64,000 bases of DNA, from positions 2,108,001-2,172,000 of the forward strand of contig NZ_CP034562.1 of assembly GCF_003970675.1 (NCBI RefSeq), given 5' to 3'. Numbering within the stretch: the first letter of the stretch is position 1; each line of letters opens with the position of its first letter. The notes below the pieces were generated by a model. The model searched no databases. It saw only the letters and a program-made list of their open reading frames with translations, and was not told where the DNA came from. A program made the translations under genes and the position numbers. This document shows positions 23,009 through 43,445 of the stretch, in pieces. Origin of the DNA: Flammeovirga pectinis. Lineage in GTDB: Bacteria; Bacteroidota; Bacteroidia; Cytophagales; Flammeovirgaceae.

Positions 23009-24610
23009 ATGTTAATTTCACTTTTAATACTACTATTAGTATTAATAAATACTGTAGGAATAGGTTTAATTGTGGTTGGTTTATTTAAAACTTCCAATGA
23101 AAGAGATTTAGTAATAACCTCTTTTATTGGGAGTTTCGTTATTATGTTATTACTAGCAATAACTCACTTTTTTGTTCCAATAAATGAATTAACTTTAATA
23201 CCATTCACTCTACTCTCTTGTATTATACTTTATGTTAATCGTAAAGTAGATTACAAACTATCTCTTTCTAAAGAATTTATTTTCTTATTAATCATTTTTA
23301 TCTTTTACCTAATTGGAAAAGGGACTCAATACCCTTCATGGACTGATAGTAATTTATATCATGCCCAAGTAATTCAATGGTACAACAAATACCCTATTAC
23401 AAAAGGTATCGCCAACTTATTCTGTGCTTATGGTTTAAATTCTTTTTTTCACCTCTTCGCAGCTCAGTATACGTTTCTAAATATTAGTAATGACCCTTTA
23501 CCAAATATTGGGATCTTATACTTTGAGTTAATGTTCCTACTATTTGTCTTTTCTAAGATACAAGAACACACTAATTATATATTAATTATTCCTTGTTGGA
23601 TTTTTGTTGGTTATTGGAATTGGGAATCTTCTCCATCACCAGATATTGTAGTTAGCATAATAATTTCAATTGGTTTAATAATTTTTTCTCAGAAAAAAAT
23701 AAGTATTGAAGAACACCTATTTTGTATATTATCAATTATTCTAATTGTAACAATCAAACAGTCAGGTGCAATTTATTCATTACTCATTTTTCCATATTTA
23801 GGTTTTCTTAAACCTAACAAAAAGCACTTATATTTTCTTTTGACTATTACAGTAGTAACATTTTTAACTTGGGTTCCCAGAAATCTTATACTGTCAGGAT
23901 ATCCTCTTTACCCATTAACAATCATTGACTTTGTCGATTTAAAACATCAGGTACCTAAAGAATTGGTAAATGCTTGGACCATTCAAATTACCTATTTTGC
24001 TAGACTCCCAATAGATTCTTGGAGAGAGGTAATAGGTCAACCATTCACGACATGGATACCCAATTGGTTTTTATTACATAGAAAAACAGATCGACTATTA
24101 ATGATAGTTACATTAATTTCTCTAATATACAGTGTCTTCATTTTTAATAAACAAGACAATAAACACAAAGCTATTCTATGCATCATATATATTGGATTAA
24201 CCTTTTGGATTGTAAAAACACCTACTATGCGCTTTGGATATTCTTACATGCTGATGCTATTTACAATTTGCTTAAAGGCAATCTTAAAAAAGAAAAAAAA
24301 TACAGATTTAATAATTAATTATTCATTAGCGATAATTATCATTATCGGAATTAGCTTCTCAGCTTTATATTATAATTGGAAAGACACAATAATTTTCCCT
24401 GGGAAATATAAAAAAACAAATACTAATAACTTTCTGATTGATCAAAATGTATTTATTTCTGTCCCTATTGATGATTACTGTAAAGATACCGCTATCCCTT
24501 GTATGTATATTACTCCTGAAAGTACCTTAAAAGCATTTTCTAATAAAATAAGTGATGGATTTTACCAATCACACCCCTCAGAAATTGATATAGAACAAAG
24601 AGGTTACTAA
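23009..24610 (+). CDS. Polytopic membrane protein, LIC_10190-like
   Basis: A 533-residue protein with about thirteen hydrophobic helices in a glycosyltransferase-C-like arrangement. The C-terminal soluble end (DDYCKDTAIPCMYITP and a DGFYQSH motif) recalls the LIC_10190 family of bacterial membrane proteins, for which I know no function. Involvement in transfer of sugars from lipid carriers is a guess from the fold type only. The five-base gap to the permease gene makes co-transcription with the exporter possible, although its job there is unclear. Confidence 0.65.
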   Translation: MLISLLILLLVLINTVGIGLIVVGLFKTSNERDLVITSFIGSFVIMLLLAITHFFVPINELTLIPFTLLSCIILYVNRKVDYKLSLSKEFIFLLIIFIFYLIGKGTQYPSWTDSNLYHAQVIQWYNKYPITKGIANLFCAYGLNSFFHLFAAQYTFLNISNDPLPNIGILYFELMFLLFVFSKIQEHTNYILIIPCWIFVGYWNWESSPSPDIVVSIIISIGLIIFSQKKISIEEHLFCILSIILIVTIKQSGAIYSLLIFPYLGFLKPNKKHLYFLLTITVVTFLTWVPRNLILSGYPLYPLTIIDFVDLKHQVPKELVNAWTIQITYFARLPIDSWREVIGQPFTTWIPNWFLLHRKTDRLLMIVTLISLIYSVFIFNKQDNKHKAILCIIYIGLTFWIVKTPTMRFGYSYMLMLFTICLKAILKKKKNTDLIINYSLAIIIIIGISFSALYYNWKDTIIFPGKYKKTNTNNFLIDQNVFISVPIDDYCKDTAIPCMYITPESTLKAFSNKISDGFYQSHPSEIDIEQRGY

Positions 24611-24640: not shown

Positions 24641-25165
24641 ATGACGACAGACCTTTTAGACTTATTGAAGATGACAATCCCTGCGGGTATTGTTTTATAT
24701 GGAGCTTTTGTAATAGTAAAGATGTTCCTACAAAAAGACTACGATACTTTATCAATTAAGATCAAATCAAGCCAAATAGAGCATACTTTACCTTTAAGAT
24801 TACAAGCATACGAAAGAATGGCTCTTTTTCTTGAAAGAATTAATTATAGAGAATTGATGGACCGTATTAATTACGATGAAATTCCTGCAGCTTTATTTCA
24901 CCAGAGTTTAATAATGACAATAAAGGAAGAATTTAATCATAACCTTTCTCAACAAATATATATTTCTCCTGATTTATGGGAGACAATCCGTGGAGTAAAA
25001 GAAGAAAACATCTCTTTTATAAATGGAATTGCACAAACTTTAGGAAAAGATGCATCTGGGTTCGATTTAGCAAAAACCATTTTGGAGAACAGTATTTCAG
25101 AAAATGCCACTCCTATTGATATTGCATTATTAAGCCTTAAGGAAGAAGTAAATACTTTATATTAA
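24641..25165 (+). CDS. Conserved membrane-anchored protein of Bacteroidota, function unknown
   Basis: 174 residues with one N-terminal transmembrane helix (residues ~13-30) and a cytoplasmic helical domain containing HTLPLRLQAYERMALFLERI and EFNHNLSQQIYISPDLWE. These blocks recur in an uncharacterised family that I associate with Bacteroidota (possibly DUF7935; not checked). No enzymatic motif is visible. It is the last gene before the 1.3-kb repeat array. Confidence 0.7.
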   Translation: MTTDLLDLLKMTIPAGIVLYGAFVIVKMFLQKDYDTLSIKIKSSQIEHTLPLRLQAYERMALFLERINYRELMDRINYDEIPAALFHQSLIMTIKEEFNHNLSQQIYISPDLWETIRGVKEENISFINGIAQTLGKDASGFDLAKTILENSISENATPIDIALLSLKEEVNTLY

Positions 25166-25262
25166 GATTTTCATTCATTAACTACTATTGCCATTTGTTT
25201 GAACAACTTTATAAACTTCAAATCAATACTCACGTTAGTATATTTATAAGATTTGAAATAAT

Positions 25263-25357
25263 AAACTCTGATGAGTTTTTAAGATATAAAGATTAAGAGT
25301 AATAGTTAGTTTTTGGGTTATGAAAAAGCATTGGAGGATTCTTCCAATGCTTTTTTT
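25263..25357 (+). ncRNA. Candidate small RNA, copy 1 (diverged)
   Basis: The core begins with AAACTC-TGAT-GAGTTT and ends with the hairpin AGCATTGG / CCAATGCT plus T7. Relative to the other copies both stems have changed on both sides while remaining paired. The 3-base insert ATG before the final stem is shared with copy 4. Strand is inferred from the T run. Confidence 0.5.
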
Positions 25358-25458
25358 ATGTGCAAAATTTTAAAAATCACATTTAAGAATATTCACACCA
25401 AAACCACAACAGTGAACAAACATTCACCGTTAAACAAAACATATAAAATGATATAAAT

Positions 25459-25557
25459 AACTCAAATAGTATTGAGTTTTTTAAGATATAAAAGATTAAG
25501 AGTAATAGTTAGTTTTTGGGTTAAAAAGCACTGGGAGTTTCTTCCAGTGCTTTTTTT
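25459..25557 (+). ncRNA. Candidate small RNA, copy 2
   Basis: The 5' hairpin is AACTCAA-ATAGTA-TTGAGTT and the 3' hairpin AGCACTGG / CCAGTGCT followed by T7. The preceding bases CATTCACCGTTA ... ATATAAAATGATATAAAT are common to copies 2-5 and may hold the promoter, although no TTTG / TAnnTTTG pair is visible there. Confidence 0.5.
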
Positions 25558-25658
25558 ATGTACAAAATTTTAAAAATCACATTTAAGAATATTCACACCA
25601 AAACCACAACAGTGAGCAAACATTCACCGTTAAACAAAACATATAAAATGATATAAAT

Positions 25659-25756
25659 AACTCAAATAGTATTGAGTTTTTAAGATATAAAAGATTAAGA
25701 GTAATAGTTAGTTTTTGGGTTAAAAAGCACTGGGAGTTTCTTCCAGTGCTTTTTTT
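25659..25756 (+). ncRNA. Candidate small RNA, copy 3
   Basis: Same two hairpins as copy 2. It differs by one T in the run after the first stem. The spacer before it has a single base change in a GTGAA / TTCAC inverted repeat (GTGAG). Confidence 0.5.
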
Positions 25757-25857
25757 ATGTACAAAATTTTAAAAATCACATTTAAGAATATTCACACCAA
25801 AACCACAACAGTGAACAAACATTCACCGTTAAACAAAACATATAAAATGATATAAAT

Positions 25858-25958
25858 AACTCAACTAGTATTGAGTTTTTAAGATATAAAAGATTAAGAG
25901 TAATAGTTAGTTTTTGGGTTATGAAAAAGCACTGGGAGTTTCTTCTAGTGCTTTTTTT
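25858..25958 (+). ncRNA. Candidate small RNA, copy 4
   Basis: The first loop has changed to CTAGTA. In the terminator stem one C has become T (TCTAGTGCT), which keeps pairing as G-U. It carries the ATG insertion seen also in copy 1. Confidence 0.5.
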
Positions 25959-26060
25959 ATGTACAAAATTTTCAAAAATCGCATTTAAGAATATTCACAC
26001 CAAAACCACAACAGTGAACAAACATTCATCGTTAAACAAAACATATAAAATGATATAAAT

Positions 26061-26157
26061 AACTCAACTAGTATTGAGTTTTTAAGATATAAAGATTAAG
26101 AGTAATAGTTAGTTTTTGGGTTAAAAAGCACTGGGAGTTTCTTCCAGTGCTTTTTTT
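26061..26157 (+). ncRNA. Candidate small RNA, copy 5 (array end)
   Basis: It has the loop CTAGTA of copy 4 and the terminator stem of copies 2 and 3. The spacer sequence does not follow it; after the T run the DNA becomes unique, which defines the right end of the array. Confidence 0.5.
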
Positions 26158-26526
26158 GTTATTCATTTAATATCTTACTTTAAAAGAGTAAAAATAATAA
26201 GTCTTTTTTTTATTTTCGACATATAAACTACTATAAATTTACACAATTTAGGAATCTCTACAATTATTTAAATAATTATTATTCAGCTATTTACGTTTTT
26301 AAAAATGAATAAACTTTCATTTTTAAATGAAAAAATAAGTTAAAACAAGTTCGTGAATTTAACTTATTTGAAGAACTCGACATTTTATATCATATAATTT
26401 CTTTAGAAATAGTATTTATTACTTTAAATAGTATTATTCCATCAAAGTTTTTCATTAAATTGCAATCAATTAAGATATGGATTATTAATCATAATCAATT
26501 ATACACTACCACTTGTAACCAACATT
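26158..26526. other. AT-rich gap before the ECF sigma gene with two perfect inverted repeats
   Basis: No gene is seen. At 26298-26327, TTTAAAAATGAA and TTCATTTTTAAA form 12-bp arms around six bases. At 26334-26368, AATAAGTTAAA and TTTAACTTATT form 11-bp arms around thirteen bases. They lie six bases apart, about 160-230 bases before the sigma factor start, and lack T runs. They might be a structured leader or dyad binding sites. Confidence 0.5.
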
Positions 26527-43151: not shown

Positions 43152-43261
43152 TCTGATAAATTTAATGTTGATGAAAGCATTATAGAGTTTTCTAATATTT
43201 TTTAATGATCAACATCACTAGTAAATAAGGCTTCTAAATATTTGATTGTTTAAAATCTTCA

Positions 43262-43445
43262 ATCATCTTTGCACTCAAGATTCTGAAGGGAATTTGGTTA
43301 AAATCCAAAACAGTCCCCGCTACTGTAATTTTATCTATGAAAATAGAATGATGTATAAACCACTGAAGTAATTCGGGAAGGGCATCTTAATAAAAAAGTC
43401 AGGATACCTTCAAAATCAAAAAAATTATCTTCGGGTGCAAAGTCA
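43262..43445 (+). ncRNA. Cobalamin riboswitch
   Basis: The conserved core is visible in order: GAAGGGAA (43285-43292), a TTGG/CCAA stem, then AACAGTCCCCGCTACTGTAA, CCACTG, CGGGAAGG and the B12 box AGTCAGGATACCT (43397-43409). CTTTGCAC (43267-43274) pairs perfectly with GTGCAAAG (43435-43442), which probably closes the structure eight bases before the ATG at 43451. The downstream genes are a B12 binding protein, receptor and capture lipoprotein. Bound cobalamin is expected to reduce their expression; the position of the closing helix suggests control of translation. Confidence 0.92.

Follow-up and report, generated by a model that had tools for sequence, protein, structure and literature searches.

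FopS (RF04319) and GibS (RF04182) are multicopy small RNAs (sRNAs) of Bacteroidota that, as described in PMC11697453, have a conserved single-stranded stretch and a Rho-independent terminator, as do the units of the tandem array analysed here. Unlike the array, FopS is described there as having 14 paralogues in B. thetaiotaomicron, sigmaABfr and PM2 promoters, and a seed in its 5′ stretch, with a consensus that lacks the 5′ hairpin of the array units (PMC11697453). Sibling sRNAs that share a core and are countered by one complementary sRNA, as we propose for the array, are described for SisA-D and the sponge CrfA in Caulobacter and for Qrr and QrrX in Vibrio (PMC12559287, including its account of QrrX). 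The CrfA and QrrX sponges have been demonstrated experimentally, whereas the array has 3–9 units in one row and a sponge that is predicted only. LhrC1-5 of Listeria, which is under LisRK control, belongs to a different phylum from the array, uses UCCC motifs and has no adjacent sigma control. Like the array, LhrC1-5 comprises five sRNA copies, which are 111–114 nt long, are induced by envelope stress and appear additive in the account of PMC6794450. ECF-type promoters, as in the array, precede the sRNA genes MicA and RybB, which are under RpoE (PMC8103513), and Rfp11 of Flavobacterium psychrophilum, which is listed in a table that seems to belong to the CGT-box motif SM6 (PMC9723704). By analogy, the array most likely works like SisA-D/CrfA, Qrr/QrrX and LhrC, while being a member of no sequence family tested.

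The window analysed is a stretch of 64,000 nucleotides from the genome of Flammeovirga pectinis. The reading that we favour, with modest confidence, is that the array encodes one small regulatory RNA five times over, in consecutive genes, likely driven by a sigma factor, with a linker that acts mainly by pairing and has an RNA from a DinB locus as one likely partner.

Five tandem units of ~199 bp occupy positions 25214–26157, each closed by a covarying hairpin and a T-run (Table 1), and Tandem Repeats Finder reports a repeat at 25272–26157 with a period of 199, 4.4 copies, 96% matches and a score of 1602. The repeat call, the five linker copies and the five terminators confirm the five-copy tandem array proposed in an earlier note on this DNA; the interval, given there as 196–203 bases, measures 203, 199, 199 and 202 bases between successive linker starts. 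The cores that the note took as the repeat are correctly placed, but the promoter-bearing spacer repeats as well: the period takes in the whole ~199-bp unit including the spacer, in which the promoter motif of each unit sits, and the identity between units 2 and 3 is 99% over 199 nt. Within a unit, the order is AAC, CGTT, a hairpin of 16–20 nt, the linker AGAGTAATAGTTAGTTTTTGGGTTA, and a terminator hairpin with its T-run. The hairpin and T-run that the note placed at the end of each core are present in 5/5 units, the hairpins being of 15–16 bp. The region had also been called gene-free, and the intergenic gap holding the array (25166–26526) indeed contains no ORF of at least 100 aa, the longest being 47 aa. 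ORFs of 32–47 aa recur in the spacers of the window, but the equivalent place in two spacers of another Flammeovirga (G006) gives only 18 aa; coding spacers were rejected, and the spacer ORFs would therefore seem to be incidental products of unit duplication. Next to the array is a LIC_10190-family membrane protein gene for which the regions fetched from the eight other Flammeovirga genomes contain no full match; G006 retains ~30 codons of its end.

Table 1. Features of the array and its surroundings (positions in the window)
Feature	Position	Strand	Details
LIC_10190-family membrane protein gene	23009..24610		adjoins array
DUF7935 gene	24641..25165	+	left neighbour of array, conserved
Unit 1	25214..25357	+	AAC (−35) 25214–25216, CGTT (−10) 25233–25236, 5′ hairpin 25263–25278, linker 25296–25320, terminator stem 25323–25355, T-run to 25357
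Unit 2	25408..25557	+	upstream TTCACA from 25392; AAC 25408–25410, CGTT 25428–25431, 5′ hairpin 25459–25478, linker 25499–25523, terminator stem 25523–25555, T-run to 25557
Unit 3	25608..25756	+	upstream TTCACA from 25592; AAC 25608–25610, CGTT 25628–25631, 5′ hairpin 25659–25678, linker 25698–25722, terminator stem 25722–25754, T-run to 25756
Unit 4	25807..25958	+	upstream TTCACA from 25791; AAC 25807–25809, CGTT 25827–25830, 5′ hairpin 25858–25877, linker 25897–25921, terminator stem 25924–25956, T-run to 25958
Unit 5	26010..26157	+	upstream TTCACA from 25994; AAC 26010–26012, CGTT 26030–26033, 5′ hairpin 26061–26080, linker 26099–26123, terminator stem 26123–26155, T-run to 26157
Spacer ORFs, 32–45 aa	25358..25456, 25558..25656, 25757..25855, 25921..26058		repeated, e.g. 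MYKILKITFKNIHTKTTTVNKHSPLNKTYKMI
ECF sigma factor gene, 207 aa	26527..27150	+	best NCBIfam match SigX4/SigJ (ECF41-like), most of C-terminal extension missing; candidate driver of units
Cobalamin riboswitch	43241..43429		RF00174, 69.5 bits

The array is conserved throughout the sampled members of the marine genus Flammeovirga. Genomes are labelled G000 (own genome), G001–G008 (other Flammeovirga), and G010, from a sister genus, and G012 (same family, other genera). With a 200-nt unit as query against 58 genomes including the own genome, strong tandem matches are found in 8/8 other Flammeovirga, and the array is syntenic in 9/9, between the DUF7935 gene and the ECF sigma gene; in G003 the array spans a contig break, the DUF7935 gene lying at the end of one contig and the sigma gene at the end of another. 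Unit counts are 5 (G000), 7 (G001), 5 (G002), 7+1 (G003), 5 (G004), 6 (G005), 3 (G006), 9 (G007) and 8 (G008), all of which are lower bounds, as units with a divergent linker would be missed. An exact scan of named genomes for the linker pattern returned 14 stretches, 12 of them from Flammeovirga; the other two, from a Clostridiales MAG and Persicitalea, have no unit around the match. The array is not a private satellite; it is shared at one place by the genus.

In total, 81 distinct copies were collected, of which 60 (class A) are array units plus four solo copies that share the promoter (two each in G000 and G006), and 21 are solo copies with ATGAG before the motif. Of the 60 class A units, 57 share the first 23 bases of the linker and 51 share all 25; a constant linker is favoured by the search itself, which located units through the linker and allowed up to 3 mismatches. 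In the terminator stem, 98.5% of cells are paired and 9/13 pairs have changes on both sides; on all five pairing measures, 0/500 shuffles reach as high, and sliding the partner by one column lowers pairing to 58–70%. Furthermore, a 5′ hairpin of at least 5 bp, ending 22–27 nt before the motif AATAGTTAG, is present in 57/60 units and comprises 32 distinct arm pairs, and arms crossed between units pair at only 41% of positions. The full pairing of the 5′ stem within a unit follows from the method, which picked the best stem for each unit, and only 37/60 units reach p<=0.05 against letter shuffles. Since the paralogous units share descent, the cells and promoter copies behind these counts are not independent events. 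At the sequence level, a fixed single strand between covarying stems is characteristic of a functional RNA and contrary to random drift. Random substitution in the stems of homologous arrays, named beforehand as the outcome that would speak against consecutive sRNA transcription units, is not what was found: the stems covary, the linker is fixed and homologous arrays exist, in support of that proposal. It is extremely unlikely that the array is a functionless selfish or neutral tandem repeat; the homogenisation of units within a genome, as seen in units 2 and 3, fits such a repeat, but its retention at one place in 9/9 genomes, the compensatory stem changes and the near-invariant linker do not.

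The units carry a recognisable promoter motif. The sequence AAC-N16/17-CGTW (W = T/A), the general form of ECF promoters, lies upstream of 54/60 units. In 500 Markov controls, the corresponding number averages 1.3 and never exceeds 5; the reverse strand gives 7 in the same search. The remaining 6/60 units lack the ECF-type motif; three of them are the first units of their arrays and have TATATTTG. In Flavobacterium psychrophilum, as presented in PMC9723704, the CGT box is taken as an ECF promoter mark and TAnnTTTG is named as the housekeeping box, which TATATTTG fits as a sequence. In the own genome, the strict motif TTSACA-N9-13-AAC-N16/17-CGTT has 7 matches (4 for the reversed pattern), a count that leaves out weaker sites and does not give the full regulon. 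Four of the five array units account for 4 of these matches and the two ECF-type solo copies for 2, with one further site elsewhere; with 6/7 matches in this sRNA family, the strict motif is almost specific to it, whereas MicA, RybB and Rfp11 are single genes among other regulon members.

The ECF-type promoter motif in most units and the ECF sigma gene beside the array in every Flammeovirga searched go beyond the earlier note. This adjacency and the promoter class point to the ECF41-like sigma factor encoded next door as the likely driver of the units. Its gene is the sole match at E<=1e-20 in each Flammeovirga genome. The 207-aa protein matches SigX4 over model positions 4–188 of 281 with 167.9 bits, against a cut-off of 323.25. 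Several hallmarks of ECF41 are absent: the SnoaL-like C-terminal extension beyond sigma4 is missing, with no SnoaL in Pfam at E<=0.001; the neighbours are the array and a GAPDH gene in place of a COE gene (decarboxylase, oxidoreductase, epimerase), which is also absent in about a third of the ECF41 group; and the units have AAC-N16/17-CGTT (motifs compared as read) in place of the ECF41 consensus, given in PMC3426412 as TGTCACA-n16-CGTC next to the sigma gene. According to the same source, artificially cutting ECF41 proteins to 204 or 206 aa raises activity ~20-fold and ~120-fold, respectively, and removing the whole extension abolishes it (PMC3426412). The natural length of 207 aa is near that of these hyperactive truncations, an analogy that is suggestive, nothing more. 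Autoregulation of the sigma gene through a unit-type promoter was considered and rejected, as AAC-N15/18-CGTW is absent from the 330 nt before the gene in 9/9 regions.

It is rather unlikely that the sRNA array is driven by an ECF sigma encoded elsewhere, with the adjacent sigma incidental, and the position of the array beside the SigX4-like gene in every Flammeovirga argues against it. Four observations are consistent with such a driver: the departure of the unit motif from the ECF41 consensus; the 31 first-look candidates, not all necessarily sigma factors, that the sigma query returns in the own genome; the regions of 7–11.5 kb around sigma relatives in four other genera (G010, G012, G015 and G011, with only 717 nt upstream in G015), none of which has a linker copy differing at fewer than 4 of 17 positions; and the ECF-type solo copy at G000:C2:430663, which is ~1.1 kb away from a second ECF-type sigma gene (TIGR02999; 191.8 bits against a cut-off of 126.15), likewise in G006. 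With no such linker copy in these regions, an origin of the array older than the genus was rejected. The TIGR02999 sigma may drive this solo copy, or both sigmas may share a promoter type. Near the same copy (region L057 5038–6680), the TIGR02999 sigma gene is accompanied by genes for a PP2C-like phosphatase and a Ser/Thr kinase.

Related copies occur outside the array. Solo copies with AATGAGAAATAGTTAGTTTTTGGGTTA (0–1 mismatch) are present in 9/9 Flammeovirga, and one solo class has a box such as TATGTTTG just before the 5′ hairpin, which we read, from its sequence, as a putative promoter. A second tandem family, with GCAATAAGAAATAGTTTTTGGGTTATTAAAGGAA and a terminator, lies at a separate locus, where the own genome has two copies 201 bp apart; this locus (G000:C1:2348294-2348578) is between a class-III aminotransferase gene and the gene for a 400-aa Omp85-domain protein. 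A variant linker, AGTAATAGTTAGTAATTGGG, is found at G000:C1:2673877 (minus) and at a matching site, G006:C1:4628970, with no obvious terminator. The solo copies bear on the suggestion of the earlier note that the array blocks read-through, which is not favoured because it leaves the promoters, the fixed linker and the solo copies elsewhere unexplained. More broadly, it is very unlikely that the array is a cis-acting insulator whose terminators guard against read-through into the sigma gene, or a leader tuning that gene. Such a role would fit the strong terminator closing each unit and the position of the array, immediately before the sigma gene and in the same orientation, but a terminator array needs no promoters, fixed linker or 5′ hairpin, the unit also stands solo at other loci, and the copy number ranges from 3 to 9.

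A covariance model built from 63 sequences and searched against 241 genomes gives matches better than 1e-6 only in the nine Flammeovirga and in G010 and G012. At E<=0.01 it reports 51/241 genomes, and the weak matches in 40 others were not accepted; five of these from four genomes were inspected, and the full linker is in none, the one from G320 having AGTAGTTTTTGGGG. In G010, one sRNA copy lies directly behind three tRNA-Gly genes (region L068 4569–5182). The earlier statement that no described family has this linker holds against Rfam 15: a scan of the array at gathering score and at lax thresholds gives no family at cut-off. FopS (17.2–21.0 bits, cut-off 56), GibS (20.7–24.1 bits, cut-off 115) and BTnc049 (RF04179; 29.1, 27.9 and 22.5 bits, cut-off 81.9) were rejected as parents because their scores are far below cut-off and unrelated families score alike. 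BTnc049, on which a literature search found nothing, gives the best Rfam score for a unit and has a similar U-rich stretch before the terminator; no homology is claimed. Across the phylum, the FopS model is over cut-off in 0/118 genomes, and its two weak matches in the own genome are both away from the array. Where a Type III toxin-antitoxin RNA array would have its toxin gene, directly downstream of the repeats, the ECF sigma gene stands in 9/9 genomes (across the contig break in G003). The units show, by prediction from sequence, features of the multicopy trans-acting sRNA class, namely paralogous, separately terminated units with one shared single-stranded core. The sequence family is new, with no Rfam family at cut-off, and its design is a tandem sRNA row beside a likely sigma factor. 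Among the titles and abstract openings listed in literature searches, including those on Flammeovirga and on multicopy sRNAs and sponges, the array is described in none.

A candidate partner RNA is encoded at a separate locus. The sequence AACCCAAATACTAACT at G000:C1:1366802-1366817 (minus) lies just before a terminator, between a DinB-superfamily gene (PF12867) and an ABC-transporter gene. The box ACCCAA(A/G)TACTAACT is found downstream of the orthologous DinB gene in 9/9 Flammeovirga and is absent from the 420 nt examined in four other genomes of the family. In the nine-region alignment, the box is the most conserved 15-column window, with 14/15 columns invariant, while the region in species other than the near-twin G006 is 55–67% identical to the own sequence. 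Because the site was chosen in a complementarity search and its conservation was tested afterwards, conservation is the independent part of this evidence. The box is complementary to the linker save one or two mismatches: one U-U mismatch is present in 9/9 genomes, and the outermost base of the 16 is unpaired in five species; four species have G for A in the box, so that an A-U pair becomes G-U. The duplex predicted between the array linker of the own genome and the partner in each of the nine species is matched in strength by 0, 0, 5, 0, 2, 0, 0, 1 and 0 of 200 dinucleotide shuffles, and that for the solo linker by 0–7 of 200, whereas the linker of the second family does no better than chance (10–74 of 200). 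These alignments and predicted duplexes suggest that the linker probably does pair with the DinB-locus RNA; the candidate roles of that RNA are sponge and target, and the match may also be coincidental.

Matches to the linker among mRNAs are less uniform. Complements of linker 14-mers in the nine genomes are near control among the matches listed, which leave out G001, G003 and G008 and part of G005; in the own genome, there are 18 non-self matches against 14 for the control. In G010, the pattern ACCCAAAAAC-N0-30-ATG has 44 matches and its reversal 8; the corresponding pairs in six Flammeovirga are 15 and 7, 11 and 14, 14 and 7, 20 and 14, 18 and 5, and 29 and 8. All of these counts take in sRNA antisense and nested ATGs, and a reversed pattern controls poorly for leaders rich in A/C. 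The excess before start codons in G010 may reflect either sRNA targets or leader composition. Several of the ACCCAAAAAC sites in G010 precede genes with signal-peptide-like starts. The target stretches inspected were a chosen subset of 40 (34 from G010, 5 from G002 and 1 from G000).

A permutation test of single k-mers gives a few mild excesses in G010. In a whole-site test on 306 G010 leaders, 7-mers number 47 against 24.4, with 5/400 shuffles as high, followed by 8/400 for 8-mers and 9/400 for 9-mers. The same test on 311 leaders of the own genome gives no enrichment (31 against 29.1, 153/400 shuffles as high, then 93 and 56 of 400). Complements of the 5′ part of the array linker are rarer than in shuffles in both genomes (390 and 398 of 400 as high). 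A reversed-leader control of the whole-site test gives similar counts, 43 and 36, although it is weak, since part of the site reads the same backwards. In G010, a perfect 16-nt complement lies 5–20 nt before the start codon of a 118-aa gene, whose product looked like a response regulator yet matches no Pfam family, so that assignment was dropped. The exact 16-nt complement found at G002:C1:321995 falls within a radical-SAM gene, and we discounted it as a chance match. Taken from these sequence counts, a general mRNA-repressing role of the linker RNA would be plausible but unproven, and it is the weakest step of the proposal.

The leaders also bear on what the linker binds. CsrB-type RNAs titrate CsrA, and the units could likewise be sRNAs whose linker is a protein-binding site, forming a decoy or chaperone element that titrates an RNA-binding protein. 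We consider this unlikely: a protein footprint would fit the shortened linker of the second family, the retention of the linker over very different 5′ hairpins and terminators, and the lack of enrichment for complements in the own-genome leaders, but it leaves aside the complementary RNA conserved in 9/9 Flammeovirga and, in G010, the perfect complement before a start codon and the mild leader enrichment (5/400).

Under the favoured reading of the array as a row of sRNA genes, each RNA would be ~115–120 nt long, as estimated from promoter and T-run, with a small variable 5′ hairpin, an AU-rich single strand containing the linker AGAGUAAUAGUUAGUUUUUGGGU(UA), and a Rho-independent terminator. 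Transcription, the choice of sigma factor, pairing in the cell and the direction of control are what we infer here from the observed units, synteny and complementarity. A signal that raises the activity of the ECF sigma would cause several units to fire together; given their own ECF-type promoters and the likely sigma driver, one sigma signal would fire many gene copies at once. The TAnnTTTG box on the first unit in three of nine arrays could provide a basal level. The linker would be the working part, acting mainly through base pairing in trans, and the single-copy complementary RNA of the DinB locus would serve as a sponge (a counterweight) or as a target. As a tentative possibility, the sigma factor may work almost wholly through RNA, with the short ECF41-like sigma firing 3–9 tandem and a few solo sRNA genes and little else, one sponge opposing them, and copy number setting a titration threshold.

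Circuits of sRNAs in Bacteroidota are little known outside Bacteroides. A sigma factor with its own candidate sRNA genes lined up next to it would offer a clean example of RNA dosage as the means by which a stress sigma acts, and the predicted complementary RNA bears on why cells keep many copies of an sRNA, as a matter of dose against a sponge. The array size, from 3 to 9 units among nine Flammeovirga, forms a natural copy-number series.
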